From assembly GCF_001921215.1 (NCBI RefSeq), contig NZ_MSIF01000018.1, forward strand, positions 62,001-126,000: a stretch of DNA of 64,000 bases, in the 5' to 3' direction. The translations under genes and the position numbers were made by a program. Position 1 is the stretch's first letter. Each line of letters starts with the position of its first letter. This document shows, in pieces, positions 1 through 43,297 of the stretch. The notes under the pieces are model-generated. The model was not told the DNA's origin. It was given only the letters and a program-made list of their open reading frames with translations, and did not search any database. Source of the DNA: Actinophytocola xinjiangensis. Its GTDB lineage: Bacteria > Actinomycetota > Actinomycetes > Mycobacteriales > Pseudonocardiaceae.

Positions 1-1
1 G

Positions 2-4591: not shown

Positions 4592-14516
<9,925 letters not shown>

Positions 14517-14520
<4 letters not shown>

Positions 14521-25156: not shown

Positions 25157-27346
25157 ATGTCGAGAAGCCGCGCGCTCGCCGCGTTCGTCAGCGGAGTCCT
25201 GTTCACGGCGTTGGTCGCCGTGGCTCCCTCAGTCGCCGAGGTCGCACCGGCCGAACGGGCGGCCGCCGGCGAAACCGGCGACAGCTTCGTCGCCCTGGAA
25301 CCGAGGCGGGTGCTCGACACCCGCACCGGGCTCGGCGGGCGGACCGGTGCGGTGGGGCCGGGGCAGGCGATCGTCGTCGACCTGTCGTCCTCGGCGATCC
25401 CCGCGAGCACCACGGCCGTCGTGCTCAACGTGACCGTCGTGTCCCCCACCAGGGAGACCTACGTGACCGTGTACCCGGACGGGCAGGCGCGGCCGACCGT
25501 GTCCAACCTGAACGTCGCCGCCGGAGACATCCGGTCGAACCAGGTCACCGTCGCCGTCAGCGGCGAGGGCCGGATCGCCCTGTACAACAACACGGGCAAC
25601 GCGCACCTGGTCGCCGACCTGAGCGGCCGCTACGAGCGCACCCTCGCCGGCAGGTTCACCGCGCTCACCCCCAGGCGCGTGATGGACGGCTACTCGGTCG
25701 GCCCCCGTGGCACCACCGTCCTCGACCTGACCGGCCGGGTGCCGGCGTCGGCGAGCGCGGTGACGTTCAACCTCACGGCCATCCGGCCGACCTCGGACAC
25801 CTTCGTCACCGCCTGGCCGGCCGGCGCGACCCAGCCCACCTCGTCGAGCCTCAACATCGGCGCCGGGGACATCCGGCCGAACCTGGTGACCGTCCCGGTC
25901 GGCGGCAACCGCAAGGTGAACCTGTACAACCACAACGGCACCGTCGACGTGACCGTGGACCTCGCCGGCTTCTACAGCGCCGCGTCCGGCTCCTACTTCC
26001 TGCCGGTGACACCGACCCGCGTGCTGGACACCCGCACGTCCGGCGGCACGCTCGGCGCGGGCACCACCCGGGCCATCCCGGCGACCACACCGGACAACGC
26101 CACGGCGATGGTGCTGAACGTGACCGGTGTGCAGCCGACCACCGCCACCTGGCTCGGGGCCTGGACACCGCTGTCCGGCGACCAGCCCGTCCCCGTGGTC
26201 TCCTCGCTGAACCTCTCCGCCGGGGAGATCGCCGCCAACCTCGCCGTCGTCGAACTGCGTCCCGGCGCGAACCCGTTGGTGTACAACAACTCCGGCCTGA
26301 CCAATGTGGTGGCCGACCTGTCCGGGGTGTTCGTCGCGCCGACGCCGTCCTGCGCCACCGGCTGCGCGTACACCTGGGGCGCCAACGAGCGGTGGCAGCT
26401 GGGCTCGGGCCTGCGGTACTACCCCGGACCGAGGCGGGTCGTCGACCTGTCCGGCGTGGTCGCCCAGGCCAGCGCGATCGACGACCTGTCCCGCTACGCC
26501 CTGCTGGCCAACGGCACCGTGGTCGCGTGGGGCGACAACCGCGCCGGCCAACTCGGCGGCGGCTGGACCGGCGGGATGTCCCCGACCCCGGTCGTGGTGA
26601 CCGGCCTGACCGACGTCACCGCGATCGCGACCACCCACGGCACGGCCGTCGCGCTGCGCTCCGACGGCACGGTGTGGGCGTGGGGGTCGTCGGCCGCCGC
26701 CGGGCAGCCGTCCTCGGTGCCCGTGCGGGTCGGTGCGCTCAGCGGCGTCACCGCCATCGCCGCCGGCTGGTCGACGGTGTACCTGCTGCACAGCGACGGC
26801 ACGGTGTGGGAGTGGGGCCATCGCAACAACAACAACGCCTGGACCCCGGTCCAGGTAGCTGGCCTGACCGACGTGGTCTCCGTGGCGGCGCCGCACGGCA
26901 GGGGAATCGCCGCCCGCGCCGACGGCACGGTGTGGACCTGGCCGCACGACGGCACCCCCACCCAGATCCCCACCCTCACCGACATCACCGAGGTGGCCGC
27001 CGGCGACCTCACCGGCTACGCCCTGCGCACCGACGGCACGGTCTGGGCCTGGGGTGACGGGCACTGGGGCCAACTGGGCAACGGCGTCGACTGCTCCGCG
27101 GGCAACCCACCCGGCTGCTACGTCGACACCCCGGTGCAGGTGGTGGGTCTGACCGACGTGGTCGCCCTGCCGACCGGCTACCTCCGACTCAACGGCTACG
27201 CCCTCCGAGCCGACGGCACAGCCTGGTCGTGGGGCGAGTGGGAGCACCTGGGCACCCCGGCCAGCCGGGACATGAGCACACCGGTACGCGTGGACCTGCC
27301 CTCCGGCGTCACCTCACTCAGCGCGGCGGGGGCCGTCGTCGGCTAG
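25157..27346 (+). CDS. Secreted protein with three VLDTR beta domains and RCC1-like repeats
   Basis: A 729-residue exported protein. Signal peptide 1-28. Residues about 40-400 are three repeats of roughly 120 residues, each opening with P(R/T)RV(L/M)D near 47, 173 and 288 and ending in a (V/A)DL(S/A)G strand; the middle copy has lost the DTR signature. From about 405 to the end are RCC1-type propeller repeats (YTWGANERWQLG, VVAWGDNRAGQLG, VWAWG, VWEWGH). RCC1-like secreted proteins with this N-terminal domain are common in actinomycetes and are assumed to bind surface or extracellular partners; enzymatic activity is not expected. GGAGTGACCC precedes ATG 25157. Confidence 0.88.
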   Translation: MSRSRALAAFVSGVLFTALVAVAPSVAEVAPAERAAAGETGDSFVALEPRRVLDTRTGLGGRTGAVGPGQAIVVDLSSSAIPASTTAVVLNVTVVSPTRETYVTVYPDGQARPTVSNLNVAAGDIRSNQVTVAVSGEGRIALYNNTGNAHLVADLSGRYERTLAGRFTALTPRRVMDGYSVGPRGTTVLDLTGRVPASASAVTFNLTAIRPTSDTFVTAWPAGATQPTSSSLNIGAGDIRPNLVTVPVGGNRKVNLYNHNGTVDVTVDLAGFYSAASGSYFLPVTPTRVLDTRTSGGTLGAGTTRAIPATTPDNATAMVLNVTGVQPTTATWLGAWTPLSGDQPVPVVSSLNLSAGEIAANLAVVELRPGANPLVYNNSGLTNVVADLSGVFVAPTPSCATGCAYTWGANERWQLGSGLRYYPGPRRVVDLSGVVAQASAIDDLSRYALLANGTVVAWGDNRAGQLGGGWTGGMSPTPVVVTGLTDVTAIATTHGTAVALRSDGTVWAWGSSAAAGQPSSVPVRVGALSGVTAIAAGWSTVYLLHSDGTVWEWGHRNNNNAWTPVQVAGLTDVVSVAAPHGRGIAARADGTVWTWPHDGTPTQIPTLTDITEVAAGDLTGYALRTDGTVWAWGDGHWGQLGNGVDCSAGNPPGCYVDTPVQVVGLTDVVALPTGYLRLNGYALRADGTAWSWGEWEHLGTPASRDMSTPVRVDLPSGVTSLSAAGAVVG

Positions 27347-27474
27347 TGCCCTCAGCGGCGGTCACCGATACCGGAACAGGTCCCGAACGGCCCGACCCGC
27401 CGCCTGCCGGTGATTGTCGGGGTGCGCCGCTAGCCTTCAGCCGTCACGTCGCAGGGATGGTCAATGGAGGAAGC

Positions 27475-28332
27475 GTGGGCTGGCTGGACGCCGCATCCGG
27501 TTATCAGGTTCGGATCGGGGACGGTGGGCGGGTGCAGTGTCGCAACGCCAAGGGCAGGGTGCTCTCGTCGGTGCCGCCGGCGCTGAAGGAGGACCCGCAG
27601 GTGGTGCGGTTGCGCCAGCTGACGGAGTGGCTCGACCGCCACGAGGCGGCGTGCCGGGCGCGCGTCGACGAGTGGATGGTGCGGTCGTTACCGGTGCCCA
27701 CCGCCCTGGTGGTCCAGGTGTGGGCCGACCCGGCGTGGGCCGCCGCCCTGCGTGACCTCGTGGTCGCGGCCGGGCCGGGCGAGGTCGGGTTCCTGCGGGA
27801 CGCGGACGCCAGCCGCGGGTTGGGCGTGGTCACGCTCGACGGGGACACCGTGCGCCTGCGGCCGGAGAGCGTCCGCGTTCCGCATCCGGTGCTGCTCGAC
27901 GACCTCGACGAACTACGCGAGTTCGGCGCCGAACTGGGGGTGGAGCAGCAGGTGCGGCAACTGTTCCGGCAGACCTTCGGCAAACCGGCGGAACTCCCGG
28001 CCGGACAGACGTCGGTCGCCGACTTCCGTGGGGGGCGGTTCGAGCAGCTCAACCACGCGTTCAGCCGGTGCCGCACGCTCGGCTACCCGGTGCGTGGCGG
28101 CGACGCCGTCCACACCGCCCACGAGAACGGTGTCGCGGTCGAAGCTCGGTTCTGGTTGGGCGGCGACCATCCGGAGGGCGAGACGTGGACGGGGGACCTG
28201 CGCTGGGCGCTGGCCGACGGCACGGCACTGCACCTCGCCGACGTTGGGCCGGTCGCGTGGTCGGAGGGAATGCGGATGGCGTCGTCGATCCACGCCGGCC
28301 GTGTGGTCGCCGAGGACGAGGCGGTGGCCTGA
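27475..28332 (+). CDS. DUF4132 domain protein, short stand-alone form
   Basis: A 285-residue protein opening GWLDAASGYQVRIGDGGRVQC and, from about residue 145, a DUF4132-like region (FGAELGVEQQVRQLFRQTFGK, VADFRGGRFEQLNHAF, RTLGYPVRGGD). In E. coli YehI/MolR-type proteins DUF4132 is the C-terminal part of a much longer chain; here it is a separate small protein. Biochemical activity is unknown. GTG 27475 was chosen because GGAGG lies four bases upstream; an in-frame ATG at 27457 would add six residues. It is first in the five-gene MoxR/VWA/SWIM operon, one base before the next start. Confidence 0.75.
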   Translation: MGWLDAASGYQVRIGDGGRVQCRNAKGRVLSSVPPALKEDPQVVRLRQLTEWLDRHEAACRARVDEWMVRSLPVPTALVVQVWADPAWAAALRDLVVAAGPGEVGFLRDADASRGLGVVTLDGDTVRLRPESVRVPHPVLLDDLDELREFGAELGVEQQVRQLFRQTFGKPAELPAGQTSVADFRGGRFEQLNHAFSRCRTLGYPVRGGDAVHTAHENGVAVEARFWLGGDHPEGETWTGDLRWALADGTALHLADVGPVAWSEGMRMASSIHAGRVVAEDEAVA

Positions 28333-28333
28333 G

Positions 28334-31300
28334 ATGAGCGGGAACGCAACGGCTCTGATCGCGGCGGGTGCCGTCCTGCCGGGCGACGTCGGGCCCGGCG
28401 ACGACCGGGACACCATCACCGCCCGGCACTACACGCATCCCGCGCTCGACGGGCGTGTCGTGGTTCGGCTCGTGCCCGCCGTGCTCGGGGTGGCCGAGGA
28501 CCTCACCTGCGAGTATCTCGGGTTCGACGCGCCGAGCGTCACCGCCGAGGTCGGGACGGGCAAGCGCAGCGCGCTCGGGTTCCCGGCGTGGGCGCTGGTG
28601 CACGACCCGGCCAACGGCCACCACGCGCTGAACCTCGTCAAGGACGTCGAGCGGCTGGCCCGCACCGCCAGGTCCAAGGCCGGTGCGGCCAAGGACGGGT
28701 TCACCGCGCTCGGCGACATGCTGGGCCGGTCCGCACCACACCTGCTGCCCACGTTCTACGAGCAGGCGGGCCGGATCTTCCTCGACCACGGCAACACCAC
28801 CTACGCCGCGACCATGTTCGGCAAGGCACGCGAGGCCGAGGAGGTGCACGACCTCACCGTCGACCCGGACCGCCTGCGTGAGGTGTTCCTCGAGTTCGCG
28901 TTCGCCGGCGCGCTCACCGCGAAAGCCCTGTCGGCGCACGCGAAAGGGCTGGCCCGCCGGCACGACCCCGGCGAGGCCTACGAGCTGTTCCTGACGTTGT
29001 GCGTCGAACGGACCCGCGGCGGGCTTCCCCCGTACACCGGCCTGCCGGAGGACCTGCGGCGGCTGGCCCGCGCGGCGAAACGCAACCTCGCCGACGAGGA
29101 CGAGCGGCTGCTGCGCGCGGTGCTGGACACCTCGGCGATCGACGGCGCGACCGCCGCGTTCTGGAAGTCCTACCGGGACGCGCTGGTCCGTCTCGCCGAC
29201 CGGGACGACGCCGTGCGCGACCGGGTGCTGCGGTTCGTGCCGTCGTCGGTGGCGGCGTTGGACACGTGGCTGGACATCCTCACCGCGTGCGGCGCGACCC
29301 GGGCGCTCACCGAGCCGTCGACCGGCGAGCCGGGGGCGGTGTCGCCCGCCGGGTGGCTCTCGGCGGTGTGCCGGGTGCGCACCACGGGCTGGCGCCGCAC
29401 GTCACGGTCGCGTCGGCTACTGGAGCTGGTCGAGGCCATGGCGACGCGCCTGGCCGCCGACGGCCAACCGGTGAACGCGCTGATGGGCTGGCGGAACAAC
29501 GAGCTGGACCTGATCGACCTGTTGCTGGCGCACGGCGTCGAGGTCACCGGAGACAACGGCCGTCTGCGGTTCGAGGTCGACGGGTGGCTCGGCGACGAGG
29601 AGCCGGGCGGCCGTGACCTCGCCGCGCTGGGCGCCACCGGCCGGTACGCGGACGCGCTCGGCGACGGCCTCGTCGACCATCTGCGGTCCGGTGCCAGGGA
29701 CGGGATCGCCGACCGGGACGCGCTCGTCGGCGCCCTGGCGGTGCCCGGGTTGCGGGCCGCGTTGGGCCGCTGGCTCACCGCCCGCGCCGGGCGGGCGCGA
29801 CCGCCCGGTCTGCCGGGGCTGGCCGACCGGTTGGGGGAGCTGGCGGTGGCCGGGCACGGCGAGGCGTTCGCCGACGTCCCGGAGGCGGCCGAGGCGATCG
29901 CCGCCACGGACGTGGCGGCCGTGCTGCACACCACGCTGCGCGCCGGTCTGCTCGACGAGCTGGGCTGGCCGGCCCTCGACGACGCGGTGACGCGCCTGCG
30001 GGTGGGTGGCCGCAAGGACGAGCCGGTGGTGGTGTGCGGGGAGGGCTGGCCGGCACTCGTGTTGCGTCGCGGCGAGCACGTCGTGGTCGTCGGGCCGGAC
30101 GGGGTGCTCGCCGAGCACGTCCTGCGCATCCCGCCGGACGTCCACCGCCACAGCTGGTCGTTCGCGCCGACCGTGTCGTGGTTCGACGGGCGGCTGCTGG
30201 TGCGCTGGCAGGATCGCGACGGCGTCTCGGCGTACTGGAGCGACGCGCCGAGCACGGTGTTCACCCCGGCCGGTGAGTCGCGTGGGTACCACCAGCGTGA
30301 GAACCACCGGCCGTCGATCGCGCTCGCGGACGGCGCCCGTTTCGGTGGCCATCGCGCCGTCCGGCCGGGTGATCGTGAGGTCACGACGGGCAGCGCGGCG
30401 TACGGCGACGGGACGACGGTGTGGACGCTGGCCCACCGCCGCGACCTGTGGCGGTGGGTGGAGGTCGATCCGGCGACCGGCGACCAGGGGCGTGCCAGCC
30501 TGCCGGCGTTCGTCGAGGACTTCGCCGCCGACGGCGCCGCGCTGGACCTGGTGACGTGCTCCCTGTGGCCGGCCGTTCCGGCCACGCTGGACAGTCCACT
30601 GGGGATGGCGAACGGCCTGCACGGGTGGCGGGTGCGCAAGGAGGCCGACGGCGGCCACCGGGGCGAGCGGGTGGACGGCCGCGTCGTGCGGTTCCCCGAG
30701 GGCCGGCCGACACCCGCCGGGCTGCTGACGTTGCCGGGCGGCGTGGAGTTGGCGTTCGGCGAGAACTACCACCAGGTGGTCCTGCTCGACGAGGGAGGCG
30801 AGCCGCTGGCCGAGGTGACCGCCAGGACCGCCCATCCCCTCTACGCGGCCGGCACCCCGCTGGTGGCGCCGCGCGGCTGGTGGCATCTGCTCCGGCCGCG
30901 CGACGAGGCGGGTTCGGCGGCGCTGCGGCAGGTGTCCCGCGCGGCGGTGGACGCCCTGATCGCCGCCGCCACCGAGGAACTCGACAACGAACGACCCGAC
31001 TCCGCCGAGCGGTACGCCGCGCTCGTGGGCGGTGAACGCGACGCGCTCGCCACCGCGGTCACCGACGCCCTGCCCGGCCTGTCCCACCCGGCGCTGATCG
31101 CGGGGGTGATCGACGTGGTGGAGCTGGCGGCGTTGGTGCTGCGCGGCCACCGCGCGTTCGGTGCCGTCGCCCAGGCGGCGCGGGAGGCCGACCTCGACGC
31201 GCTCGCGCCGGCCGGGCCGGTCGTCACCGAGGACGAGCTGAACACCGCGCTGGGCTGGTACGAGGGTGCCCGCCGCTACTACGGGAACGCCAGCCCGTCG

Positions 31301-33175
31301 TCGACGTCCGCGTTGCCCGACCTGCTCGCCGCGCTCACCGAAACCACCACCCGGCTGCCCGCGCGGGAGCGGTCACTGCCGGTGAGCAACGACCGGTGGT
31401 ACGGCGTGCTGCCGCACCTGGCGGCGCTGGCCCACCGCGCCGCCTCCCCGCTCACGCCCGACGACCACCGCGACGCGCTGGTCTTCGCGCTGCGGACCGT
31501 CGCCGACAGCGGTTTCGCCGACGACGACGGGCACTGGCGGGTGGTCACCGTGACCGCCCCGACCGACGGCGACGCGCGCACCGACGGCGTGGTGCCCACG
31601 CCCGACGGCTTCCTCGCCCTGTTCCACGCGAACCGGTACCGGGCCGAGGGGGCGTGGTGCACCGGGCTGCAGTACACCGCCGCCGCGGGCCGGTTCGCGC
31701 TGCCGCCTGGCTGGCGGCTGTCCGACTCGACCGGGGTGGCGCAGCCGTTCGGGCGCGAGCGGATCGCCCGCTTCCTGGACGTGCTCGCCGAGCGCGGGCC
31801 GGCGCCGTGGCGGCCCGAGGCGGTACCGGCGCTGGTCGAACGGACCGGGCTCGGCGCGGCGGAGGCGACCGTGCTGCTGGCCGGCATGCCCGAGGTGCGC
31901 GACTGGGCCGCCACCTATCTGGACGCGCCCCGGCGGAAGCTGCTGGGTCTGTCGGCGGCCGAGGCCAAGGCCGCCCGGCAGCGCCTGCGGGTGCTCAGCG
32001 ACGAGTACCGGCACGCGCTGCTGGCCGCCGCCGTGCCGGAGGACCCGGCGCTGCTGTGGACCACCGGCCCGGACGTGGCCGCCGTCGCCGACGTGTGGAC
32101 CGCGACACACGGGGTGCGGCAGGCCGTCCCGGACGACGTGCTGGTGGACGCCGCCAAGCAGCTGCCGTTGAACAACGCGACGGACCTGGTCACCAGCCTC
32201 GTCAACCCGGACACGACGGCGTGGCTCACCGAGGAACCGGACCAGCGGTTCGTCGAGGCCACGCTGACCAACCACAACGACCAGGCCCTCGCCGCCGCCA
32301 CCCTGCGGGTGCTGCCGGGTGCCCTGCTGTGGCTGGCGCAGCGGCTGCCGGTCGGCTCGCCGTCGCGGGCCCGGTTGCCGGAGGCGCTCGACCTGGCCCG
32401 CCAGCGGGTGGCGTCCCCCGGTTTCGCGGTCGACCTCGGCCGGTGGAACACGGCCGAGCCGGTCTGTCGTCTGCTGGGCGCCGAACGGCCGCCCGAGGGC
32501 ACGGTCGTCGACCATCTCCCGTGGCTGCACCTGGTCGGCAACCAGCACGGGTACTGCGGTGTGGTGGTGCGGCCAGGGCTCGCCGGCCCCGAGGACCGGC
32601 CGCTGCTCGCCGCGCTCGCGGAGATCACCGGCGACTCGTGGCTGCCCGAGGTGCTCGACGCCCTCGCCGACGACCGGACGACCGCGGCCTGCGCCGCGAC
32701 CGCGCCGGCGGACACCGACCCGGCGCTCGCCCCGCAGGACCCGACGGTGACCGCCCCGGACCTGGTGCGGGAGGTCGCGGCCAGGTTCGGCCTCGACGAG
32801 GACGCCGCCGTGCTGTACCTGCAACTGCTGGCCCTGCCCGACCCGACCGACGCCAACACCGCGCGCTGGACGGGCTGGAAACCGGCGCGGCTCAAGGCGG
32901 CCAGGGCCGCGCTCGCCGCCACCGACCTGGTGCTGACCGCCAAACGGGCCAGGGCGGGCCGGTCGCTGTTCCTGCCAGGCGGCTGGCTCGCGCTGAACCG
33001 GCCGCACCTGCCGCTGGAGTCGTGGAAGGCGCCGATGTTCGGGTTCACCGACACGCCGGTGGGGGTGGTGGTGCCGAGGGAGCCGCTGGGTGACCTGTTC
33101 GCCCGCGCCTGGCAGCGGATCCTCGACGGCGACACGCCCGCCTACGAGCAGCTGCGGACCGGAGGCCGCCGATGA
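28334..33175 (+). CDS. Giant protein of unknown function in MoxR/VWA operon
   Basis: A 1613-residue soluble protein with no signal peptide or membrane helix and no domain I can name. The first 450 residues look alpha-helical (many KAREAEEV- and RLAR-type helices). Residues about 550-900 are beta-rich with Trp/Gly-rich strands suggestive of a propeller or jelly-roll. The last 600 are helical again, with a terminal WTGWKPARLKAARAALAAT segment that could be a winged helix or protein-binding module. Large uncharacterised proteins recur beside MoxR, DUF5682, VWA and SWIM genes in actinomycetes. ATG follows the DUF4132 stop by one base and its stop overlaps the MoxR start, so it is an obligate operon member, probably a scaffold or effector. 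Confidence 0.85.
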   Translation: MSGNATALIAAGAVLPGDVGPGDDRDTITARHYTHPALDGRVVVRLVPAVLGVAEDLTCEYLGFDAPSVTAEVGTGKRSALGFPAWALVHDPANGHHALNLVKDVERLARTARSKAGAAKDGFTALGDMLGRSAPHLLPTFYEQAGRIFLDHGNTTYAATMFGKAREAEEVHDLTVDPDRLREVFLEFAFAGALTAKALSAHAKGLARRHDPGEAYELFLTLCVERTRGGLPPYTGLPEDLRRLARAAKRNLADEDERLLRAVLDTSAIDGATAAFWKSYRDALVRLADRDDAVRDRVLRFVPSSVAALDTWLDILTACGATRALTEPSTGEPGAVSPAGWLSAVCRVRTTGWRRTSRSRRLLELVEAMATRLAADGQPVNALMGWRNNELDLIDLLLAHGVEVTGDNGRLRFEVDGWLGDEEPGGRDLAALGATGRYADALGDGLVDHLRSGARDGIADRDALVGALAVPGLRAALGRWLTARAGRARPPGLPGLADRLGELAVAGHGEAFADVPEAAEAIAATDVAAVLHTTLRAGLLDELGWPALDDAVTRLRVGGRKDEPVVVCGEGWPALVLRRGEHVVVVGPDGVLAEHVLRIPPDVHRHSWSFAPTVSWFDGRLLVRWQDRDGVSAYWSDAPSTVFTPAGESRGYHQRENHRPSIALADGARFGGHRAVRPGDREVTTGSAAYGDGTTVWTLAHRRDLWRWVEVDPATGDQGRASLPAFVEDFAADGAALDLVTCSLWPAVPATLDSPLGMANGLHGWRVRKEADGGHRGERVDGRVVRFPEGRPTPAGLLTLPGGVELAFGENYHQVVLLDEGGEPLAEVTARTAHPLYAAGTPLVAPRGWWHLLRPRDEAGSAALRQVSRAAVDALIAAATEELDNERPDSAERYAALVGGERDALATAVTDALPGLSHPALIAGVIDVVELAALVLRGHRAFGAVAQAAREADLDALAPAGPVVTEDELNTALGWYEGARRYYGNASPSSTSALPDLLAALTETTTRLPARERSLPVSNDRWYGVLPHLAALAHRAASPLTPDDHRDALVFALRTVADSGFADDDGHWRVVTVTAPTDGDARTDGVVPTPDGFLALFHANRYRAEGAWCTGLQYTAAAGRFALPPGWRLSDSTGVAQPFGRERIARFLDVLAERGPAPWRPEAVPALVERTGLGAAEATVLLAGMPEVRDWAATYLDAPRRKLLGLSAAEAKAARQRLRVLSDEYRHALLAAAVPEDPALLWTTGPDVAAVADVWTATHGVRQAVPDDVLVDAAKQLPLNNATDLVTSLVNPDTTAWLTEEPDQRFVEATLTNHNDQALAAATLRVLPGALLWLAQRLPVGSPSRARLPEALDLARQRVASPGFAVDLGRWNTAEPVCRLLGAERPPEGTVVDHLPWLHLVGNQHGYCGVVVRPGLAGPEDRPLLAALAEITGDSWLPEVLDALADDRTTAACAATAPADTDPALAPQDPTVTAPDLVREVAARFGLDEDAAVLYLQLLALPDPTDANTARWTGWKPARLKAARAALAATDLVLTAKRARAGRSLFLPGGWLALNRPHLPLESWKAPMFGFTDTPVGVVVPREPLGDLFARAWQRILDGDTPAYEQLRTGGRR

Positions 33176-34323
33176 GTTCCGCCGCACGGCAGGTCGAGCC
33201 CGCCGAGGACGCGTTCGCCGAGGAGTTGGCGTTCCTCGCCGCCCACGACGACGGTCCCCGGCCGCCGGGTTGGCGGCTCACGCCGCGCGCGGCCGTCACG
33301 TTCGTCACCGGCAGCGGCGGCGACACCCTCGCCCTGCCCTCGGGGGTGACGGTGCCCGGGGTGCCGGCCCGGTTGGCGATCGGCCCGAAGTTCGTCGGCG
33401 AGCGCGCGCTGGTGGAGCGGGCGGTGGTCACGCTGGCGGGCGAGCGCGGGCTGCTGCTGGTCGGTGAACCCGGCACGGCCAAGTCGATGCTCTCCGAGCT
33501 GCTGGCCGCGGCCGTGTCCGGCGACAGCCAGCTCGTCGTGCAGGGCACCGCCGGCACCACCGAGGACCAGCTGCGCTACGGCTGGAACTACGCGCTGCTG
33601 CTCGCCGAGGGCCCGAGCCCCCGGGCGCTGGTGCCCTCGCCGGTGATGACGGCGATGCGCACCGGCGGTGTGGTGCGGGTGGAGGAGGTCACCCGCTGTC
33701 TGCCCGAGGTGCAGGACGCGCTCGTGTCGATCCTGTCCGACCGGCGGCTCGCGGTGCCGGAGCTGTCCGGCACCGACGGGGCCACGGTGCACGCCGCGCC
33801 CGGGTTCACCGTGATCGCCACGGCGAACCTGCGGGACCGGGGCGTGTCGGAGATGTCGGCGGCGCTCAAGCGCCGGTTCAACTTCGAGGCGGTGGGCCCG
33901 ATCGGTGACCTGGCGCGGGAGATCGCGTTGGTGCGCCGGCAGGCGGTCACCGCGCTGGAGCGGGTGAACGCGCCGTTCGCGCTCGACGACGTGGTGCTTG
34001 AGGCGCTGGTGACGGCGTTCCGTGACCTGCGGGCCGGGGTGTCGGTGGAGGGCTGGTCGGTGGAGCGGCCCTCGACGGTGATGAGCACGGCGGAGGCGGT
34101 GTCGGTGGCGACCTCGCTCGGCCTGGCCGACGCGTACTTCCCCGGCGACCGCGACCCGCTGTCGCTGCTGCCGGGGCACCTGCTCGGCGTGGTCCGCAAG
34201 GACGACCCGAGCGACGCGGCCCGGCTGCTGGGTTACTGGGACGGCGCGGTGCGGCGGCGGGCCGAGACCGGTGCGCGGACCTGGCGACGGCTGTGGGAAC
34301 TGCGTGACGTCCTCGACGGCTGA
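33172..34323 (+). CDS. MoxR-type AAA+ ATPase (YehL-like)
   Basis: A 383-residue AAA+ ATPase: Walker A GEPGTAKS near residue 98, Walker B region VVRVEEVTR near 167 (Glu-Glu where Asp-Glu is usual), sensor-1-like IATANLRDRG near 217 and an arginine-rich KRRFNF segment. MoxR ATPases act as chaperones that remodel or load metal ions into complexes and work with VWA-domain partners; here the VWA partner is encoded by the next gene. ATG overlaps the upstream stop (ATGA), and its own end overlaps the next gene by about 20 bases. Confidence 0.92.
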   Translation: MSSAARQVEPAEDAFAEELAFLAAHDDGPRPPGWRLTPRAAVTFVTGSGGDTLALPSGVTVPGVPARLAIGPKFVGERALVERAVVTLAGERGLLLVGEPGTAKSMLSELLAAAVSGDSQLVVQGTAGTTEDQLRYGWNYALLLAEGPSPRALVPSPVMTAMRTGGVVRVEEVTRCLPEVQDALVSILSDRRLAVPELSGTDGATVHAAPGFTVIATANLRDRGVSEMSAALKRRFNFEAVGPIGDLAREIALVRRQAVTALERVNAPFALDDVVLEALVTAFRDLRAGVSVEGWSVERPSTVMSTAEAVSVATSLGLADAYFPGDRDPLSLLPGHLLGVVRKDDPSDAARLLGYWDGAVRRRAETGARTWRRLWELRDVLDG

Positions 34324-37300
34324 CCCGGAGGTGGTCGGGCGGCTCGCGGCGCACCGCACGCCGTACCTGGTCGGCGTGCGGCACCACTCCCCCGCGCTCG
34401 CGGGCGTGCTGCCCGCGCTGCTGGACGCGGCCGAGCCCGACGTGGTGCTGGTCGAGCTGCCTGAGGAACTCGGGGAGTGGTTGCCGCACCTGGGTGATCC
34501 GGCGTTGACGGCGCCGGTCGCCCTGTCCGGCGCGCACCGCGACGGGTCGGGGTTGGCGTTCTACCCGTTCGCCGACTTCTCCCCCGAGTTGGCCGCGATC
34601 CGGTGGGCGCGCCGCGCGGGGGTGCCGGTGCGGCCGTGTGATCTGCCGCTCGCGTATCGCGACGGGTACCGGGCGGCCGGCGGCGGGGCGTCGCCGCTGG
34701 CCGACGCGTTGCGCCGCACCGTCACCGGCCGCGACGACGAGGACCTGTGGGACCGGCTGGTCGAGGCACCCGCGCCGGGGCAGGACCCGGAGTCGTTGCG
34801 GCGCACGGCGTTGATGGTCGGCTGGGCCCTGCGCGCGGACGCCGCCGGGTCCGCGACCGGGGTCGACCCGCATGACCTGCGCCGCGAGGCGTGGATGCGG
34901 CGCGTGGTCGCGGCGCAGGGTGACCGGCGGTGCGCCGCGGTCGTCGGCTCGTTCCACGCGGCCGCGCTGCTCGGCGGGCCGGCGGGCGAGTTCGCGCGGG
35001 TCCACGGGGAGGTCGTGACCTCGCTGGTGCCCTACGGGTTCGACCTGCTGGACGAGCGGTCCGGGTATCCGGCGGGGATTCGCGACCCAGAGTGGCAGCA
35101 GGCCGTGCTGGGCGCGGGTGGTGATCCGGCGGCCGTCGAGGCCGCCGCGGCGGCGGTGATCGTGCGGATCTGCGCCAGGATCCGCGAGTTGGGGCACCCG
35201 GCCGGTCCCGGTGAGGCGCGGGAGGCGCTGCGGCTGGCCGTGGACCTCGCCCGGCTGCGGGGGTTGCCCGCGCCGGGTCGCGGTGAGGTCGTGGAGGCGG
35301 TGCAGACCGTGCTGACCCACGCGGAACCGTGGGGGCGCGGCCGGGTCGTGGCGCGCGCGGCGGGTGACGTGCTGGTCGGTCACCGCACCGGTGTACTCGC
35401 TCCTGGCACGCCGCGCTCCGGTCTCGCGCCCGCTGTCGAGGCGTTGGTGGAGGAGCTGGGGTTGCCGGGGCCCGGCGCACGGGAGGCGGTGGCGCTGCGG
35501 CTGGATCCGCTGCGTTCCCCACTCGACGCCCGCCGCGAGCTGACCCTGCGGCGGTTGACCGTGCTGGGCGTGCCCTACGGCGAACCGACCGCGACCACCG
35601 GTGTCGGCGGCGCGGACGCGCTGACCACGCGGTGGACGGTGACGTGGACCCCGGCGACCGCCGCGACGCTGCCGGTGGCCGGGAGGTGGGGCCCGACGGT
35701 GGAGCTGGCGGCGCTCGGGACGCTGCGGGCCCGCCGGTCCGGTCGCGAACAGGGCGAGGGCCACACGCCCGCCGCCGTCCTCGCCGACCTGGCCGACGCG
35801 GCGGTGTGCGGGCTGCCTGACCTGGTCGGCGACCTGCTGGGTGATGTGGCGACCGTGCTGCCGGGCGCTGGCACCCTCGACGAGTCGCTGACCGCGCTGG
35901 ACCTGGTCGACCGGCTGCGCGCCGGTCACCTGCCCGGTGTCCCGGCCGGGGTGCTGGACGCGCATCCGACGCTGTCCCGGGAGTTGGAGACCGCGGCGGT
36001 GGCCCAGGTGGCGGGGTTGGCGGGCGCGACCGATCCGGCCGACGCCCGGGCGCTGGTGGAGTTGGGGCTGCGCCACGACGCGCACGGCTCGGGGTTGCGG
36101 CTCGCGGCGGCCCTGCGGGCGCTGGCCGACGACGGCACGCCGCTGATCGCGGGCGCCGCGGGGGCGGTGCGGGTGCTGCTGGGTCTCGCCTCGGCGGGGG
36201 AACTGGGCGAGCGGATGGCGTCGTGGCTGGACAACGCGACCGGCCCGGACCGGCGGACCGTGCTGCGGGACGGTCTGACCGGGGTGCTCGCCGCGGCGAG
36301 TCCGCTGCTGGAGGCACCCGAGACGCTCGACCCGCTGCTGGACCGGGTGGAAGCCCTGTCCGACAAGGACTTCCTGGACCGGCTGCCCGCGCTGCGGGGC
36401 GCGTTCACGTCGATCGGTCCCGGCGCGCGGGCCCGGGTGCTGGCGGTGGTCGAGCAGCGCACCGGGGACCGTGTCGACGTGCCGCGCGCCGTCGATCCCG
36501 AGCAGCTGGCCGGGTGGCTGGCGGCCGAACGCACCGCGCTGGCAGCCCTGGACGCCCACGGCCTCACACCGTCCACTCAGGACTTCAAAACGGACCGGCC
36601 GGCACTTCGGACGTCCACTGTGGACGAAGCGGTCGAGCTGCCGGCCGGACTGCGGTGGCGGCTGGTGCTTGGCCGGCGTGGCGACCGGCCCCAGGGTGGG
36701 GCCCGGTACGCGGCGGCGCTCGACGAGCTGTACGGGCGGGAACGCGGCGAGGGCGCGGCCGGCGGCGACCTCGGCGCGGACCTGTCCGACCCGTTCCCCG
36801 ACGTGCGCGAGTGGTCCGACGAGCTGGTGGCGCTGTTCGGCGAACGCGTGCGGGAGGAGGTACTCGCGGCGGCGGTCGAGGGCGGCCGGTTCGAGGCGGC
36901 GCTGGAACTCGATCCCGGCGCCGTGCGGCCGTCGGTCGACCTGCTGCGCAACGTCCTGTCGCTGGCCGGCGGGCTGTCCGAGTCGGCGCTGGCGACACTG
37001 CGGCCACTGGTGGCGCGGCTCGTGCGGGAGCTGGCCGACCAGCTGGCGACGCGGGTCCGGCCAGCGCTGCGCGGCCTGCTGCTGCCGACCCCGACCCGGC
37101 GGCCCACCGGTCGCCTCGACCTGCCACGCACGCTGCGCGCCAACCTCGCCACCGCCCGCCGGGGCCAGGACGGGCGGGTCGCGGTGGTGCCGGCGCGGCC
37201 GGTGTTCCGCTCGCGCGGCCGGCGCGCCAACGACTGGCGGCTGGTGCTGGTGGTGGACGTGTCCGGGTCGATGGAGGCCTCGACCGTGTGGGCGGCGCTG

Positions 37301-37729
37301 ACCGCGTCGGTGTTCGCGGGGGTGCCGTCGCTCTCGACGCACTTCCTCGCGTTCTCCACCGAGGTCGTCGACCTCACCGACCGGGTGAGCGATCCCCTGT
37401 CGCTGCTGCTGGAGGTGCGGGTCGGCGGCGGCACGCACATCGCCGGCGCGCTGCGCCACGCCCGGTCCCTGGTGACCGTGCCGGAACGCACGATGGTCGT
37501 GCTGGTCAGCGACTTCGAGGAGGGCGGCCCGGTCGCGGCGCTGCTGGCGCAGGTGCGGGAGCTGGTGGCGTCGGGCGTGACGGCCCTGGGCTGCGCGAGC
37601 CTCGACGACACCGGCACGGCGCGGTACTCGACGTCGATCGCGGGTGCGCTGGTGGACGCCGGGATGCCGGTGGCCGCGCTCAGCCCGTCGGAGCTGGCCC
37701 GCTGGGTCGGGGAGAAGGTGCGCGGGTGA
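34304..37729 (+). CDS. DUF5682-VWA fusion protein (YehM+YehP-like)
   Basis: About 1141 residues combining two proteins usually encoded separately. The N-terminal part is DUF5682 (PYLVGVRHHSPAL, DVVLVELPEEL, FYPFADFSPELAAIRWA); residues about 980-1141 are a von Willebrand A domain with MIDAS DVSGS near 985, a GGGTHI Thr and a SDFEEGG Asp. The middle is helical. MoxR plus VWA pairs form chaperone-like metal-dependent complexes; the DUF5682 role is unknown. The start is uncertain: GTG 34304 overlaps the MoxR gene by 20 bases without a strong ribosome site; GTG 34331 is possible. The stop overlaps the SWIM gene start (GTGA). Confidence 0.9.
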   Translation: MTSSTADPEVVGRLAAHRTPYLVGVRHHSPALAGVLPALLDAAEPDVVLVELPEELGEWLPHLGDPALTAPVALSGAHRDGSGLAFYPFADFSPELAAIRWARRAGVPVRPCDLPLAYRDGYRAAGGGASPLADALRRTVTGRDDEDLWDRLVEAPAPGQDPESLRRTALMVGWALRADAAGSATGVDPHDLRREAWMRRVVAAQGDRRCAAVVGSFHAAALLGGPAGEFARVHGEVVTSLVPYGFDLLDERSGYPAGIRDPEWQQAVLGAGGDPAAVEAAAAAVIVRICARIRELGHPAGPGEAREALRLAVDLARLRGLPAPGRGEVVEAVQTVLTHAEPWGRGRVVARAAGDVLVGHRTGVLAPGTPRSGLAPAVEALVEELGLPGPGAREAVALRLDPLRSPLDARRELTLRRLTVLGVPYGEPTATTGVGGADALTTRWTVTWTPATAATLPVAGRWGPTVELAALGTLRARRSGREQGEGHTPAAVLADLADAAVCGLPDLVGDLLGDVATVLPGAGTLDESLTALDLVDRLRAGHLPGVPAGVLDAHPTLSRELETAAVAQVAGLAGATDPADARALVELGLRHDAHGSGLRLAAALRALADDGTPLIAGAAGAVRVLLGLASAGELGERMASWLDNATGPDRRTVLRDGLTGVLAAASPLLEAPETLDPLLDRVEALSDKDFLDRLPALRGAFTSIGPGARARVLAVVEQRTGDRVDVPRAVDPEQLAGWLAAERTALAALDAHGLTPSTQDFKTDRPALRTSTVDEAVELPAGLRWRLVLGRRGDRPQGGARYAAALDELYGRERGEGAAGGDLGADLSDPFPDVREWSDELVALFGERVREEVLAAAVEGGRFEAALELDPGAVRPSVDLLRNVLSLAGGLSESALATLRPLVARLVRELADQLATRVRPALRGLLLPTPTRRPTGRLDLPRTLRANLATARRGQDGRVAVVPARPVFRSRGRRANDWRLVLVVDVSGSMEASTVWAALTASVFAGVPSLSTHFLAFSTEVVDLTDRVSDPLSLLLEVRVGGGTHIAGALRHARSLVTVPERTMVVLVSDFEEGGPVAALLAQVRELVASGVTALGCASLDDTGTARYSTSIAGALVDAGMPVAALSPSELARWVGEKVRG

Positions 37730-39465
37730 CCGGTCTGCCCCCGGTGGCGCCCTCGGTGTTGGCCGACGTCCTCGACGACCTGCCGCCACGGCTGCGCACA
37801 CGGGTCGACGCCGCGCTCGCCCGGGCGGCGGACTGGGTCGTGACCGTCGACGGCGACCAGGCCAGCGCTCCGCTCGACGACGAGACGACGGTGACGTGGC
37901 GGTTGAGCGGTGGCGTGCTGACCGCCTCGGACGCGCTGACCTGCTCGTGTCTGCTCGCACCCCGGTGCCTGCACCGCGGCGTCGCGGTCGCCGCCGCCCC
38001 GACCGCCGACCCGGTGTCCGTCGAAGCGCCACGGGAGGCCCCGGCCGAGATCCTGGCCGAGGACGTCACCGAGGACGTCACCGACGCCGAGCGCACGGCG
38101 GCGACCGCGCTGTGGTCGGCCGGGGCGACGGTGCTGCGGGCCGGCGCGTCGGGCAGCGGCACGGTGGTCCGGGCCGAGTTGCTGCGCGCGGTCCACCGGG
38201 CCCGGGTGGTGGGCCTGCACCGCGCGGCCGCGAGCGGGCTGCGGGTGGCCGCCGCCCTCACCGCCGCCCGCACGAGCGACCCGTCCTTCGACCGCGCGGA
38301 GCTGACCGAGGACCTGCTCGACCTGCTGCTGCTCTGCCACGACCTGCGCACCGGCACCGCCGCCCCGGCCCTGCTGCGCGGCACCGCCCGCCGCGAGTAC
38401 CGCCCGGTCGGGTCGCTGCGGCTGTACGGGTTGTGCACCGAGGCCGTCGTCGCCGGCACGGGTCACGCCGGCGTGGTGACCCACCTGGTCGACGAGAGCG
38501 GGGTGCTGTGGAGCGTCCCGGCGATCCTGCCGGGAGGCGCGGAACGCGTTGCCACGGCGGCGAACGGCCCGGTGGCGATCGGCGAGTCCGGTCTCACCCA
38601 CCGCGCGCTGGGCCGGTCGGGCCTGCTGCTGTCGGGCGGCACCGCGTCCCCCGACCACCGTCTTGGCGCTGGCCGCAAGGTCCGTGCGGTCGCCGCCCGG
38701 GGCGTCGGGTGGCACGAGGCGCCGGCGGTGAGCCTGTGGCAGGAGCCGCTGCCCGACCAGGTTTCGCGGGCGTTCGCCGCGCACACGCTGCCGGATTCCC
38801 ACCGCCCGGCGGGCGCCGACCTGCTGTTCCTCGACGCGGAGGTCCTCGGCGCGGCGGGCCCGGCGCTGCGCGTGGCCACGGACGACACCCCTCTTGACCT
38901 GACCGGCGAGGACGACCGCACCCGCGAGAACCTGCGTGTCCTGGCCACCGCCACCGGTGCGCGGCTGCGCGTGATCGCCCGCCTGCTCCCCCACCACCCC
39001 GGCACCGCGGTGGCGCTCGCCGTCCAGGGCGATGCCCTCACCCTCCCGTCAGCGATGAACGGCACCGTCGATCTGGCACTGGACCGCCTCCAGCGCTCCC
39101 ACGTCCCGACGGGCGAGGCCCGCGAACTCCTCCCACGCCGGCCGCCGGAGCAGCGGGTGCCGCCGCCGCTGCACCCGCTGCGCAACCTCGTGCACCGCAT
39201 CGCCCTCGCGGGCCGCCCGGTGGCCACGGCCACGTCCGCCGACCGCGACACCGGTGCGCTGACCGCGAACGGCCTGGCCACCACGGCGTCCGTCCTGGCC
39301 ACCCTGACCGCCACGACCCACGCCCGCCACCGGGACGCCTTCGGCCGCACCACCGACGACCACACCGACGACTTCCCCCGCGCGTGGCTGACCGCGGCCC
39401 TGCACCTGCGCGCGTTCACCACCGCCACCGCGCGGCAGGCCTGGCGGTCCCACACCGAGGCCTAG
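37726..39465 (+). CDS. SWIM zinc-finger protein (YehQ-like)
   Basis: A 579-residue protein with an N-terminal SWIM zinc finger, pattern CxC-x5-CxH in TCSCLLAPRCLHRG near residue 71-82, the binding module for DNA or protein. The remainder is Ala/Arg-rich and helical with no recognised catalytic motif. GTG 37726 overlaps the VWA stop by four bases. SWIM proteins are regular members of MoxR/VWA/DUF5682 operons, where they may deliver the complex to its target. Last gene of the operon; 22 bases separate it from the convergent SRPBCC gene. Confidence 0.88.
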   Translation: MTGLPPVAPSVLADVLDDLPPRLRTRVDAALARAADWVVTVDGDQASAPLDDETTVTWRLSGGVLTASDALTCSCLLAPRCLHRGVAVAAAPTADPVSVEAPREAPAEILAEDVTEDVTDAERTAATALWSAGATVLRAGASGSGTVVRAELLRAVHRARVVGLHRAAASGLRVAAALTAARTSDPSFDRAELTEDLLDLLLLCHDLRTGTAAPALLRGTARREYRPVGSLRLYGLCTEAVVAGTGHAGVVTHLVDESGVLWSVPAILPGGAERVATAANGPVAIGESGLTHRALGRSGLLLSGGTASPDHRLGAGRKVRAVAARGVGWHEAPAVSLWQEPLPDQVSRAFAAHTLPDSHRPAGADLLFLDAEVLGAAGPALRVATDDTPLDLTGEDDRTRENLRVLATATGARLRVIARLLPHHPGTAVALAVQGDALTLPSAMNGTVDLALDRLQRSHVPTGEARELLPRRPPEQRVPPPLHPLRNLVHRIALAGRPVATATSADRDTGALTANGLATTASVLATLTATTHARHRDAFGRTTDDHTDDFPRAWLTAALHLRAFTTATARQAWRSHTEA

Positions 39466-40186: not shown

Positions 40187-41332
40187 TCAGACAAGCGCGG
40201 CGATGTCCTCGGCGAGCTGGTCGAAGCCGGGGCAGGCGCGGGACTGCCGGGACATCGCCGCCGCCCGGTGACGGTAGGAGCCCGCGAGCACCAGCGCGCA
40301 GCTCTCGGCGAGGGACGCCGGGGTGGCGGACTCGACGTCGAGCTGGAGACCGAGACCGAGACCCGCGATGCGGGCCGCGTTGTGCGACTGGTCGGAGAAC
40401 ATCGGCAGCAGCACCATCGGTGTGCCGGTGCGGATCGCCTCGGCGACGCTGCCGAAACCACCGTGGGTCAGGACGAGGTCCGCGGACTCCAGCAGCAACT
40501 GCTGCGGGACGAAGGACATCAGTCGCACGTTGCCCGGCCGCGACCCGGCCCACTCGTCGGGGTCGCTGCCCAACGCGACCACCGCGGTGCACGGCACATC
40601 GCCCAGCGCGGTGATCATCGTCTCCAGCACCTTCGGCGTCTCCGGCACGAACGTCCGCGCGACGCTGCCCAGACCAGCGAGGACCAGCGGCCGGTCGTCG
40701 GGAAGATCGAGCAGGGACGCGTCGAGCGGGCCCGCGAGCGGCGCCGGCCGGTAGTGGCGGGCCGTGGACACCCGCAGCTCGTCCGGATACCAGGCGGCCG
40801 GCACCACCCCGGCCAACAGGAAGCCCTCGGGGTGCCCCGGCTCGTCGACGGTGTCCAGCCCGAACTCGGCCCGCTGACCGTTCAGCGCGTCCCGCACCAT
40901 CGGCAGGTTCAGGGCCGAGTAGGGAGAGGTGTCCAGCACTGCCTGCGGCAGCCCCAGCTTCTCGGCGGCCAGGTAACCGCCGAACTCCTTGCACTCGCGT
41001 ACCAGCACGTCAGGCCGCCAGGACCGCGCCACCTCCAGGACGTCGCGCGCGAAGACTCCGGCCAGCGTCCCGGCGAAGGCGATCGTGAGCGAACCGGACG
41101 CCTCGCGCACGTCCCCCTTCGGCGCCGCCGCGCGACGGGCCACCAACTCGGTCAGGGTCAGGACGTTCGGCAGCGGCAGGTGCTCGATCCCGGCGGCGGC
41201 GAGATGGGGCGCCATGGCCGGCGCCGTGGCGACAGCGACCTCGTGCCCGGCGCGGCGCAGCGCCTTCGCCGCCGGTACCAGCACCGGAACGAGATGTGAG
41301 TAGAACGGCTGGCACGTCATGAGCACGCGCAT
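40187..41332 (-). CDS. GT1-family glycosyltransferase (macrolide/UGT-like)
   Basis: A 381-residue GT-B enzyme that moves a sugar from an NDP-sugar to a small acceptor. N-terminal MRVLMTCQPFYSHLVP is the family start, and LTHGGFGSVAEAIRTGTPMV near residue 285-305 is the donor-binding signature, followed by FSDQSHNAARI. ATG 41332 has GGAG eight bases before it. It is divergent from a terpene synthase across a palindrome-rich region; acting on a terpenoid alcohol is an attractive guess, but the acceptor cannot be read from sequence. No sugar-biosynthesis genes lie nearby. Confidence 0.93.
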   Translation of the reverse strand: MRVLMTCQPFYSHLVPVLVPAAKALRRAGHEVAVATAPAMAPHLAAAGIEHLPLPNVLTLTELVARRAAAPKGDVREASGSLTIAFAGTLAGVFARDVLEVARSWRPDVLVRECKEFGGYLAAEKLGLPQAVLDTSPYSALNLPMVRDALNGQRAEFGLDTVDEPGHPEGFLLAGVVPAAWYPDELRVSTARHYRPAPLAGPLDASLLDLPDDRPLVLAGLGSVARTFVPETPKVLETMITALGDVPCTAVVALGSDPDEWAGSRPGNVRLMSFVPQQLLLESADLVLTHGGFGSVAEAIRTGTPMVLLPMFSDQSHNAARIAGLGLGLQLDVESATPASLAESCALVLAGSYRHRAAAMSRQSRACPGFDQLAEDIAALV

Positions 41333-41582
41333 GCGGAGTCTCCAGGGCTCTGTGTGCGAAGGACTGTCGCTGTTCGGACATCCAGGTAGGCCACCGTTGC
41401 ACATCCCGCGCGGACGAGTTCTTCGGCCCCATACCTCATAAGTCCTTTGTGGACAGATCAACTGATGGTTGATCCACCCTGCGGCTGCCGCTAAGGTCGA
41501 AGTGATCAAGTTCGCCGCCCGACCGAACGTACACCCTGCCCCGTAAGCCATCTGGCCACTTCGATCGAACATCGGGCATCCC
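41333..41582. promoter_or_regulatory. Divergent promoter region of glycosyltransferase and terpene synthase with palindromes
   Basis: Contains a perfect inverted repeat GATCAAC-TGATG-GTTGATC (41456-41474) and a perfect 10-bp palindrome TTCGATCGAA (41560-41569) 13 bases before the terpene synthase start. These are plausible operators for the nearby TetR regulator at 42632, but they do not match each other or the palindrome near the TetR gene. Confidence 0.5.
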
Positions 41583-42620: not shown

Positions 42621-42631
42621 GAAGGCGCGCG

Positions 42632-43297
42632 CTACAACGGTTCGTCGACGGGTACCGGGATCGAGGACATCCACCGCGCGCGCTGCTGGTCGACCGCGGT
42701 GTCGAGGGCGGCCAGGATGCTCCCGATGACGAGGTCGTAGATCTGGTCGGCGGTCAGACCTCGTTCGGCCACGGCCTTGGCCAGGGCCGGGTACCTCTCG
42801 GCGGCACCGTCGCCGGGACCGTCGCCAGGACCGTCGCCACGGGCCTCGTGCAGGGCGCTGCTGACGGCGAACGCCGCGAGAGCGTCGAGCAGGGGCATCA
42901 CCACGGCACTGGGCACACCTTCGCGCATGAGCCGGGCGGCAGAGGCGTCCAACAGGTGTTCGCCGAAGCCGTGGGACCGCGACGCGACGAGGACCGGCAA
43001 CAGCGCGGGATGGGCGAGCAGGGCACGGCGCAGGGCGCGGGCGTTGCCCGGCAGCCAGTCCCGCCAGGACACACCGGGCTCGCCGACCTCGCGCACCTCC
43101 GCCAGCACCAGGTCCGCCATACCGGCGAGGATGTCCTCCTTGTTCCGGAAATGGTGGTACAGCGACGCGCTGTTGACCCCCAGGGCGCCCGCGAGGCGCC
43201 GGATGCTCAGCGCTTCGAGCCCGTCGTCGTCGACGATCGCGAGCGCGACCTCCAGCGCCCTTCGCCTGGAGATCAACGGAACCTTGGGTCTCACCAC
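42632..43297 (-). CDS. TetR-family regulator
   Basis: A 221-residue repressor: RPKVPLISRRRALEVALAIV, then HTH LSIRRLAGALGVNSASLYHHF, then a helical ligand domain resembling the TetR_C_1 class. A GDGPGDGPGDG linker (coded by a 12-bp tandem repeat at 42806-42841) interrupts the C-terminal domain. Start chosen at GTG 43297 because GAGGAG precedes the tandem GTG codons; GTG 43294 is equally possible. It is divergent from the PEP-utilising-type gene and convergent with the terpene synthase, either of which it may control. Confidence 0.88.
   Translation of the reverse strand: MVRPKVPLISRRRALEVALAIVDDDGLEALSIRRLAGALGVNSASLYHHFRNKEDILAGMADLVLAEVREVGEPGVSWRDWLPGNARALRRALLAHPALLPVLVASRSHGFGEHLLDASAARLMREGVPSAVVMPLLDALAAFAVSSALHEARGDGPGDGPGDGAAERYPALAKAVAERGLTADQIYDLVIGSILAALDTAVDQQRARWMSSIPVPVDEPL

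Follow-up and report, generated by a model that had tools for sequence, protein, structure and literature searches.

What do five tightly joined genes do in the actinobacterium Actinophytocola xinjiangensis, within a 64,000-nucleotide stretch of contig NZ_MSIF01000018.1 (positions 62,001 to 126,000 of the forward strand; this whole stretch is hereafter the window)? Reading frames and family scans placed the genes, A to E, on the + strand at 27475–39465. They encode a DUF4132 protein, a large orphan protein, a MoxR AAA+ ATPase, a fusion of DUF5682 with a von Willebrand factor A (VWA) domain, and a SWIM-type protein. We consider it probable (roughly 0.62) that they are the type II variant of a widespread, DNA-damage-induced AAA+/VWA remodelling machine with a putative metallo-hydrolase. 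A damage-switched protein-remodelling machine is probable because the promoter site in front of gene A resembles DNA-damage response sites, and because the related Deinococcus genes ddrTUVWX are induced by radiation. The gene unit, its conservation, the motifs and the promoter site were read directly from sequences; the radiation induction of ddrTUVWX was reported by others.

A tightly coupled five-gene unit

The junctions from A to E are a 1-base gap followed by overlaps of 4, 20 and 4 bases, and a Shine-Dalgarno-like GGAGG lies 5' of the GTG start at 27475. The unit and the motif in front of it comprise the following features.

27414–27436, + strand: RecA-NDp/PafBC-type DNA-damage promoter motif (TTGTCRG-N10-TANNNT; pattern search)
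27475–28332, + strand: gene A, 285-amino-acid DUF4132 protein (Pfam PF13569, E 1.1e-27)
28334–33175, + strand: gene B, 1613-amino-acid orphan of the type II layout (reading frame; no family match)
33172–34323, + strand: gene C, MoxR AAA+ ATPase of YehL type (AAA_5, E 1.5e-37)
34304–37729, + strand: gene D, DUF5682 (YehM-like) fused to a CoxE-type VWA (YehP-like) (DUF5682, E 1.4e-189)
34361–35053, + strand: N-terminal domain of D, Tiki-superfamily-like putative metallo-hydrolase (invariant residues, weak ChaN/TraB matches)
37043–37708, + strand: VWA_CoxE domain of D with the metal ion-dependent adhesion site (MIDAS) motif DVSGSM (PF05762, E 4.7e-60)
37726–39465, + strand: gene E, 579-amino-acid SWIM-type protein, YehQ relative (motif and profile match)
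about 37942–37974, + strand: CxC-x5-CxH motif of gene E (sequence motif)

An earlier note on this DNA had described the same five families at 27475–39465 with tight junctions, and reading frames and family scans bear it out. Gene E gave no match to the Pfam SWIM model at E ≤ 1; it is called SWIM-type because it carries the CxC-x5-CxH motif and because its family matches the YehQ family by profile (hhalign 99.5%). The CxC-CxH motif was present in 39 of 40 type II E stretches longer than 300 amino acids. By patterns of our own, Walker A was found in 102 of 102 C sequences, a Walker-B-like motif in 94 and a sensor in 90, and the MIDAS pattern D.SGS occurred in 84 of 90 VWA sequences.

Gene B matched no Pfam or NCBIfam family at E ≤ 1 and no PADLOC family at E ≤ 0.1, and residues 1–1194 of 26 relatives yielded no family and one weak PepSY match. 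Its predicted structure, which leaves out the last 419 residues (predicted local distance difference test score, pLDDT, 84), suggests helical repeats, a probable beta-propeller (about 30029–30823) and further helical parts; propellers (NHL, acylaminoacyl peptidase, TolB) made up most of the best Foldseek rows, none of which reached E ≤ 0.001. The idea that B is a diverged YehI was ruled out (hhalign 0.4%). When B alone was the query, 7 of 296 genomes from the phylum had it, and each of the 7 carried a DUF5682 match right beside its best B match. Two unusual relatives were seen: a second, partial one (37% over residues 1057–1595) at G182:C14:162452-164167 (L060), away from the MoxR locus, and B-like matches across nearly 10 kb 5' of C in Arachnia propionica (L103), as if B were doubled, with no A in reach.

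Conservation and four layouts

Of at least 583 relatives of the C family, the scan retained the best 80. In all, the layouts of 102 regions were compared: these 80 genome-contig loci, 20 whole-genome regions (two from the window genome), E. coli and the window. The earlier note had staked its proposal on the genes being conserved together beyond this genome, and they are: B adjoins C in 52 of the 102 regions (45 of the 80 genome-contig loci, six further loci and the window), a count that covers variants possessing C, through which the loci were located. DUF5682 followed C on the 3' side in 78 of the 80 loci, the exceptions being L104, at a contig end, and L089, with only a fragment of A and neither B nor DUF5682. 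DUF5682 and VWA formed a single gene in 45 of the 52 B loci, the contigs of the other 7 stopping ahead of the VWA, and this fusion also occurred in three loci outside the B set (L106, L116, L133). All six parts (A, B, C, DUF5682, VWA, E) were present once each and in order in 39 of the 52; among the exceptions, L103 has extra B-like matches and no A, L090 and L095 have broken parts, and the others are cut. Nearly all intact B loci share the window layout. More widely, DUF5682 was matched in 21 of the 296 phylum genomes and in 105 of the 394 from the class; on a Hymenobacter radiodurans plasmid (NZ_CP037921.1), DUF5682 is annotated as three pieces.

A MoxR-DUF5682-VWA core is common to four layouts: type I (yehI-like genes, C, DUF5682, VWA, YehQ), type II, that of the window (DUF4132-B-MoxR-DUF5682::VWA-SWIM), type III (VWA, C, DUF5682) and type IV (C, DUF5682, VWA, with SWIM and DUF5691). 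The window genome contains types II, III and IV; its two further MoxR-DUF5682-VWA systems (L040, L045) each have a DNA-damage-type motif on the 5' side. In quick trees of C, which carried long-branch warnings, types II and III each formed one side of a branch (Shimodaira-Hasegawa-like approximate likelihood ratio test support 100), and all four labels needed 4 changes against a minimum of 3. In a quick tree with YehL included, type II again makes up one side of a branch. L106 and L089 were labelled type II by hand, and the type II clade stays single without those labels.

A DNA-damage-type promoter motif upstream of gene A

Alignment of six upstream regions brought out a TTGTC...TAnnnT element, which we take to be the RecA-NDp motif of PafBC; Gamulin is said to have given its letters, in 2004, as TTGTCRGTG-N8-TANNNT. 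We counted 49 type II operons, namely the 52 B loci minus L090, L103 and L104, which lack a whole A. A relaxed form, TGTC-N12-TANNNT, lay at most 300 bases 5' of A in 43 of 49 type II loci versus 2 of 285 flanking genes, and Markov shuffles gave a mean of 0.07 of 49; these counts are not independent because many loci are close relatives. The full form was found in 18 of 49 loci and before 1 of 285 flanking genes. By family, the relaxed motif occurred in Streptomycetaceae (26/26), Micromonosporaceae (4/4), Pseudonocardiaceae (3/3 plus the window), Streptosporangiaceae (2/3), Nocardiopsidaceae (0/1), an unplaced actinobacterium (1/1), other genomes (6/6) and non-actinobacteria (0/4), and the six misses were the four non-actinobacterial loci, L095 and L107. 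LexA-type boxes 5' of A were absent by four patterns (0/49), and a looser fifth gave 2 of 49 versus 0.66 expected.

For the other layouts the whole upstream stretch was searched rather than a fixed 300 bases. Type III loci carried the relaxed motif in 4 of 5 cases and the TTGTCRG form in 3 of 5; in type IV the figures were 4 of 7 and 1 of 7, and at two of these loci a motif that only the relaxed pattern detects precedes a divergent SWIM gene; among actinobacterial type I loci they were 4 of 5 and 2 of 5, the miss (L051) being cut. For L050, L130 and L140 the motif is counted irrespective of its distance from the first start codon. The motif and its regulator PafBC are described as spread to other actinobacteria (PMC6789036; PMC8223512; here and below, statements from papers cited by PMC number refer to the excerpts of them at hand).

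The pattern TTGTCRG-N10-TANNNT had 18 sites in the 9.5-Mb window genome, and the reversed pattern had 1. One of the 18 is the site at 27414–27436; another, in the type IV copy, sits at the SWIM gene, whose called start overlaps it by 4 bases; the type III copy has a relaxed-form site. Ten selected proteins, from 9 of the 18 sites, were scanned with Pfam: several fit a DNA-damage regulon (UvrA, DNA_alkylation, GCS2 (EgtA-like), a proteasomal ATPase, a GyrB-type topoisomerase and the SWIM protein), and others are less telling (DUF218, HD, PCuAC, MoCF_biosynth). The remaining 9 sites comprise that of the window, some for which the right strand shows no called gene, one that falls within a phage-like gene, and some next to what appear by eye to be a transketolase and an ABC transporter. 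Moreover, two adjacent WYL genes (pafB/pafC-like) lie less than 14 kb from the site of the proteasomal ATPase, which agrees with what would be expected for pafBC. The window operon thus probably belongs to the PafBC (RecA-NDp) regulon.

Relatives in E. coli and Deinococcus

Kinship with E. coli yehI and yehLMPQ, put forward in the earlier note, held for C and D by pairwise identity (C versus YehL 46%; D versus YehM 28% and YehP 38%) and for A and E by profile only. Gene A matched the C-terminal part of YehI in a comparison of family profiles (hhalign 98.8%); in pairwise BLAST neither A nor B truly matched YehI, and E matched YehQ only at the SWIM motif. By these comparisons the K-12 run yehI-yehK-yehL-yehM-yehP-yehQ is homologous to the window operon, and C is a member of the YehL subfamily of MoxR AAA+ ATPases. 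At a coverage of 80% or more, yehLMPQ was present in 5162 of 5426 E. coli genomes, and 5320 of 5322 places were chromosomal. A LexA-like box (CTG-N10-CAG) ends 10 bases 5' of yehF (PF05406), the first gene of the run; a 2.8-kb stretch there holds 4 such boxes versus 0.81 expected, and the yehF box has its top ad hoc score (32), with three sites scoring 31 in the neighbouring 22 kb. MolR has been described as part of the LexA regulon (PMC8533742).

In Deinococcus deserti, the operon Deide_18730-18690, named ddrTUVWX and listed with unknown function, belongs to the radiation/desiccation response (RDR) regulon. After irradiation, 18730 (SWIM) rose more than 10-fold and 18690 (VWA CoxE-like), 18710 and 18720 more than 5-fold, an induction that depends on IrrE and is associated with an upstream RDR motif (RDRM) (PMC5552922). 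The D. taeanensis operon has an additional 78-amino-acid gene (PMC9510100) and the order SWIM-DUF5691-AAA ATPase-78-amino-acid gene-DUF5682-VWA. Its ATPase shares 74% identity with a type IV MoxR, and the best RDRM match of the 17-kb locus, a 13-of-15 one, lies just 5' of the operon. The order SWIM-DUF5691-MoxR-DUF5682-VWA is lacking in the window and is found at another locus of the same genome (L045/L190). Two D. radiodurans proteins, the DUF4132 protein DRA0166 and the WGR protein DR2173, are targets of DdrO whose levels go up under mitomycin C (PMC8533742); we saw no evidence here of a MoxR partner for either.

Three gene sets to which no function has been assigned, namely E. coli yehI/yehLMPQ, Deinococcus ddrTUVWX and the actinobacterial operons, thus turn out to form a single family. 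Its members carry sites of unrelated damage regulators, PafBC-type in actinobacteria, DdrO in Deinococcus and, more weakly, LexA-like in E. coli, the last being the weakest of the three regulatory links. This makes a DNA-damage role of the near-core, nameless E. coli cluster directly testable in a laboratory strain. In the open-licence papers searched we found no stated link between yehLMPQ, ddrTUVWX and the actinobacterial operons, although subscription journals and unopened papers may hold one; nor was anything found there on DUF5682 or on MoxR together with a SWIM zinc finger and DNA damage. In two ddrTUVWX papers the main text contains no yeh, MoxR or DUF, and PMC7159879 makes no mention of SWIM, YehL or DUF4132. 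The DNA-damage promoter, the link to ddrTUVWX and a hydrolase-like domain go beyond what the earlier note had proposed.

A putative hydrolase domain in DUF5682

The Tiki superfamily (TraB/ChaN/EreA) is marked by two GxxH motifs and a Glu, and the motifs RHHSP, VELP and GSFH in D had suggested a relationship to it before any comparison was made. Twelve residues were identical in 96 of 96 DUF5682 sequences (H27, E51, P71, P88, E95, D113, W149, E154, R194, M198, G215, H218), and the Gly of the first GxxH was not conserved, often being Pro. Besides DUF5682 itself, 33 N-terminal domains gave matches to ChaN (3, best E 0.0059), TraB (2, 0.013) and DUF5694 (2, 0.03), with single domains matching CBM46 (0.0041) and WH_PARP12 (0.0076) as well as or better than ChaN/TraB. 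Profile comparison (hhalign) gave 22.5% and then 4.1% for TraB after rows were added or dropped, 16.9% then 15.9% for ChaN, and no signal for EreA (0.5% then 0.2%); no unrelated control exceeded 3.4%. Profiles this small settle little, because known Tiki families score 0.1–1.0% among themselves; members without an open frame or profile match were lost from them (TraB 16, then 15, of 20; ChaN 2 of 4; EreA 6 of 13). In a forced full-length alignment, D lined up with both TraB and ChaN at the first His, at the Glu and at the second GxxH. A PDB sequence search with the domain gave no match. The predicted structure of D (pLDDT 85, predicted template modelling score 0.67), searched whole with Foldseek, was dominated by VWA and helical repeats (best 50 of 854 rows). 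The resemblance to Tiki-superfamily hydrolases is suggestive, not proven, and we regard the domain as a putative metallo-hydrolase, for which H27, E51, E95, D113, E154, R194, G215 and H218 are candidate residues for mutation.

A proposed mechanism and the alternatives

From these observations we infer control by PafBC in vivo, a hydrolase activity, a complex of the encoded proteins and its target. Damage would activate PafBC, turning on the promoter at 27414–27436. The MoxR AAA+ ring (C) would pair with the VWA part of D, as in other MoxR-VWA pairs, which capture a substrate peptide and then remodel the substrate (PMC7159879). The VWA would thus grip a substrate peptide while ATP hydrolysis remodels the substrate, and the putative Tiki-type metallo-hydrolase at the N-terminus of D may act on what is presented, the type II fusion tying substrate capture to it. 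The SWIM protein E and the DUF4132, propeller and helical-repeat parts of A and B may recognise or scaffold the target, most likely damaged-DNA nucleoprotein.

Several observations weigh against a damage-induced remodelling machine. The evidence for induction in this organism is promoter-based. The window site matches TTGTCRG-N10-TANNNT without the GTG that completes the motif, and the complete form is seen in only the 18 of 49 type II loci given above. Three of 7 type IV loci lack even the relaxed motif, whose chance frequency is about one per 42 kb (15 occurrences across 632 kb of the remaining loci; the TTGTCRG form, 1). Several of the 18 genomic sites are intragenic or lack a right-strand gene, and among the genes downstream several are unconnected with repair. 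Near the first detected gene of the type I loci from outside the actinobacteria, some of them truncated at a contig end, no LexA-type box was seen, and the yehF box is 8 kb from yehL, a joint transcript being hypothetical. According to a table in PMC5552922, ddrTUVWX is absent from D. radiodurans and D. geothermalis and is therefore not something the genus needs to resist radiation. Profile, PDB and fold searches alike leave the Tiki assignment weak.

A more specific and rather doubtful version would be an ATP-driven clearing machine, in which SWIM and DUF4132/B dock on damaged nucleoprotein, MoxR-VWA pulls out or unfolds its protein and a new Tiki metalloprotease in DUF5682 cleaves that protein, a bacterial functional counterpart of SPRTN/Wss1 with p97 that would also be present as yehLMPQ and ddrTUVWX.

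We consider it unlikely that the operon encodes a metal- or cofactor-insertion chaperone like NorQD or CoxDE, the latter a metal-insertion pair, perhaps for molybdenum enzymes given the MolR history of DUF4132/WGR proteins. The VWA of D is of CoxE type, NorQD pairs insert metal (PMC9976466, PMC13036017), DUF4132/WGR proteins have been linked to molybdate in print (PMC8533742), and a MoCF_biosynth gene of the window genome (L195) also lies 3' of a RecA-NDp-type site. Yet moeA and moeB were unchanged upon DdrO depletion (PMC8533742), no flanking gene cluster, as clustered without family assignment, was common to more than 6 of 52 type II loci, and control by DNA damage, as in Deinococcus and probably in actinobacteria, would not be expected of such a chaperone.

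Unlikely too, if anything slightly more so, is a phage-defence or conflict system of the MoxR-vWA ternary type triggered by DNA damage. Such ternary systems have been described as conflict systems (PMC7159879), B probably has a propeller according to its model, and YehL-type ATPases occur in 40 plasmid-collection records, some of them chromosome-sized. The bpMoxR match, however, was below its cut-off, and the one PADLOC match among the five proteins was a weak REase_II for C (E 0.0078). Intact type II loci, located through C, had a single layout with no swapped effectors seen, and yehLMPQ is near-core in E. coli (the 5162 of 5426 genomes above). PADLOC and Pfam scans of the flanks took in 96 of the 145 flanking proteins listed, from 18 of 21 gene-called type II loci, and clustering took in 730 flanking genes from 102 regions. 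At E ≤ 1e-10, 34 PADLOC families matched among the 96, but each in one or two flanking proteins among the 25 shown (mad2 and mad3 in two), no defence neighbour recurred and no cluster was common to more than 6 type II loci, so that a conflict island around type II operons was rejected for these flanks. VMAP, iSTAND and FtsH were not among the Pfam matches of the five, and propeller-like rows appeared only for B, which is not vWA-fused. The conflict-system idea raised in the earlier note is thus little supported. One phage record only was found: MT835988.1, unannotated and from human faeces, encodes a YehL-type MoxR (44.5% identity).

Finally, a damage-induced RNA-repair or RNA-quality machine of Ro60-like type is very improbable: D has a TROVE protein as its top Foldseek row (E 3.3e-5), but with a template modelling score of 0.25 by target and a root-mean-square deviation of 19.7 this likeness is one of domain order at most; RlaP, an RNA-repair-associated family, matched 2 of 96 proteins flanking type II loci, which may be chance; and an RtcB gene stands in the same D. 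deserti table (PMC5552922).

Neighbouring genes

The gene just 5' of the operon (25157–27346) encodes RCC1 repeats after a signal-like N-terminus; it ends ahead of the promoter motif and seems to lie outside the five-gene unit. Elsewhere in the window, positions 1–14520 hold two huge open frames (1523 and 3310 amino acids) of coding-type composition, and at 40187–43354 a terpene synthase stands next to an EryCIII-like glycosyltransferase and a TetR regulator.

Comparison with known systems

Like the proposed damage-induced machine of the window, NorQD and RavA-ViaA, as far as described in the excerpts at hand, combine an AAA+ MoxR with a VWA partner acting on a target protein. To our knowledge, they have no DUF5682, SWIM or DUF4132 partners and are not known as DNA-damage genes. 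The MoxR-vWA ternary conflict systems share with the window a MoxR and vWA core and a large third component (PMC7159879), but their third components are others (VMAP, iSTAND, FtsH or a beta-propeller), and the propeller of the window, if real, lies in B and is not fused to the vWA. In the Deinococcus ddrTUVWX genes, SWIM, MoxR, DUF5682 and VWA stand in a single operon as they do here; there, however, SWIM comes first, DUF5691 replaces A and B, the VWA is separate and the regulator is another. In E. coli yehF-yehH-yehI-yehK-yehL-yehM-yehP-yehQ, where the K-12 yehH carries a pseudogene annotation, DUF5682 and VWA each have a gene of their own and large YehI-type proteins take the place of A and B, with no B relative seen, whereas DUF4132, MoxR, DUF5682, VWA and SWIM follow one another in the same order as in the window.

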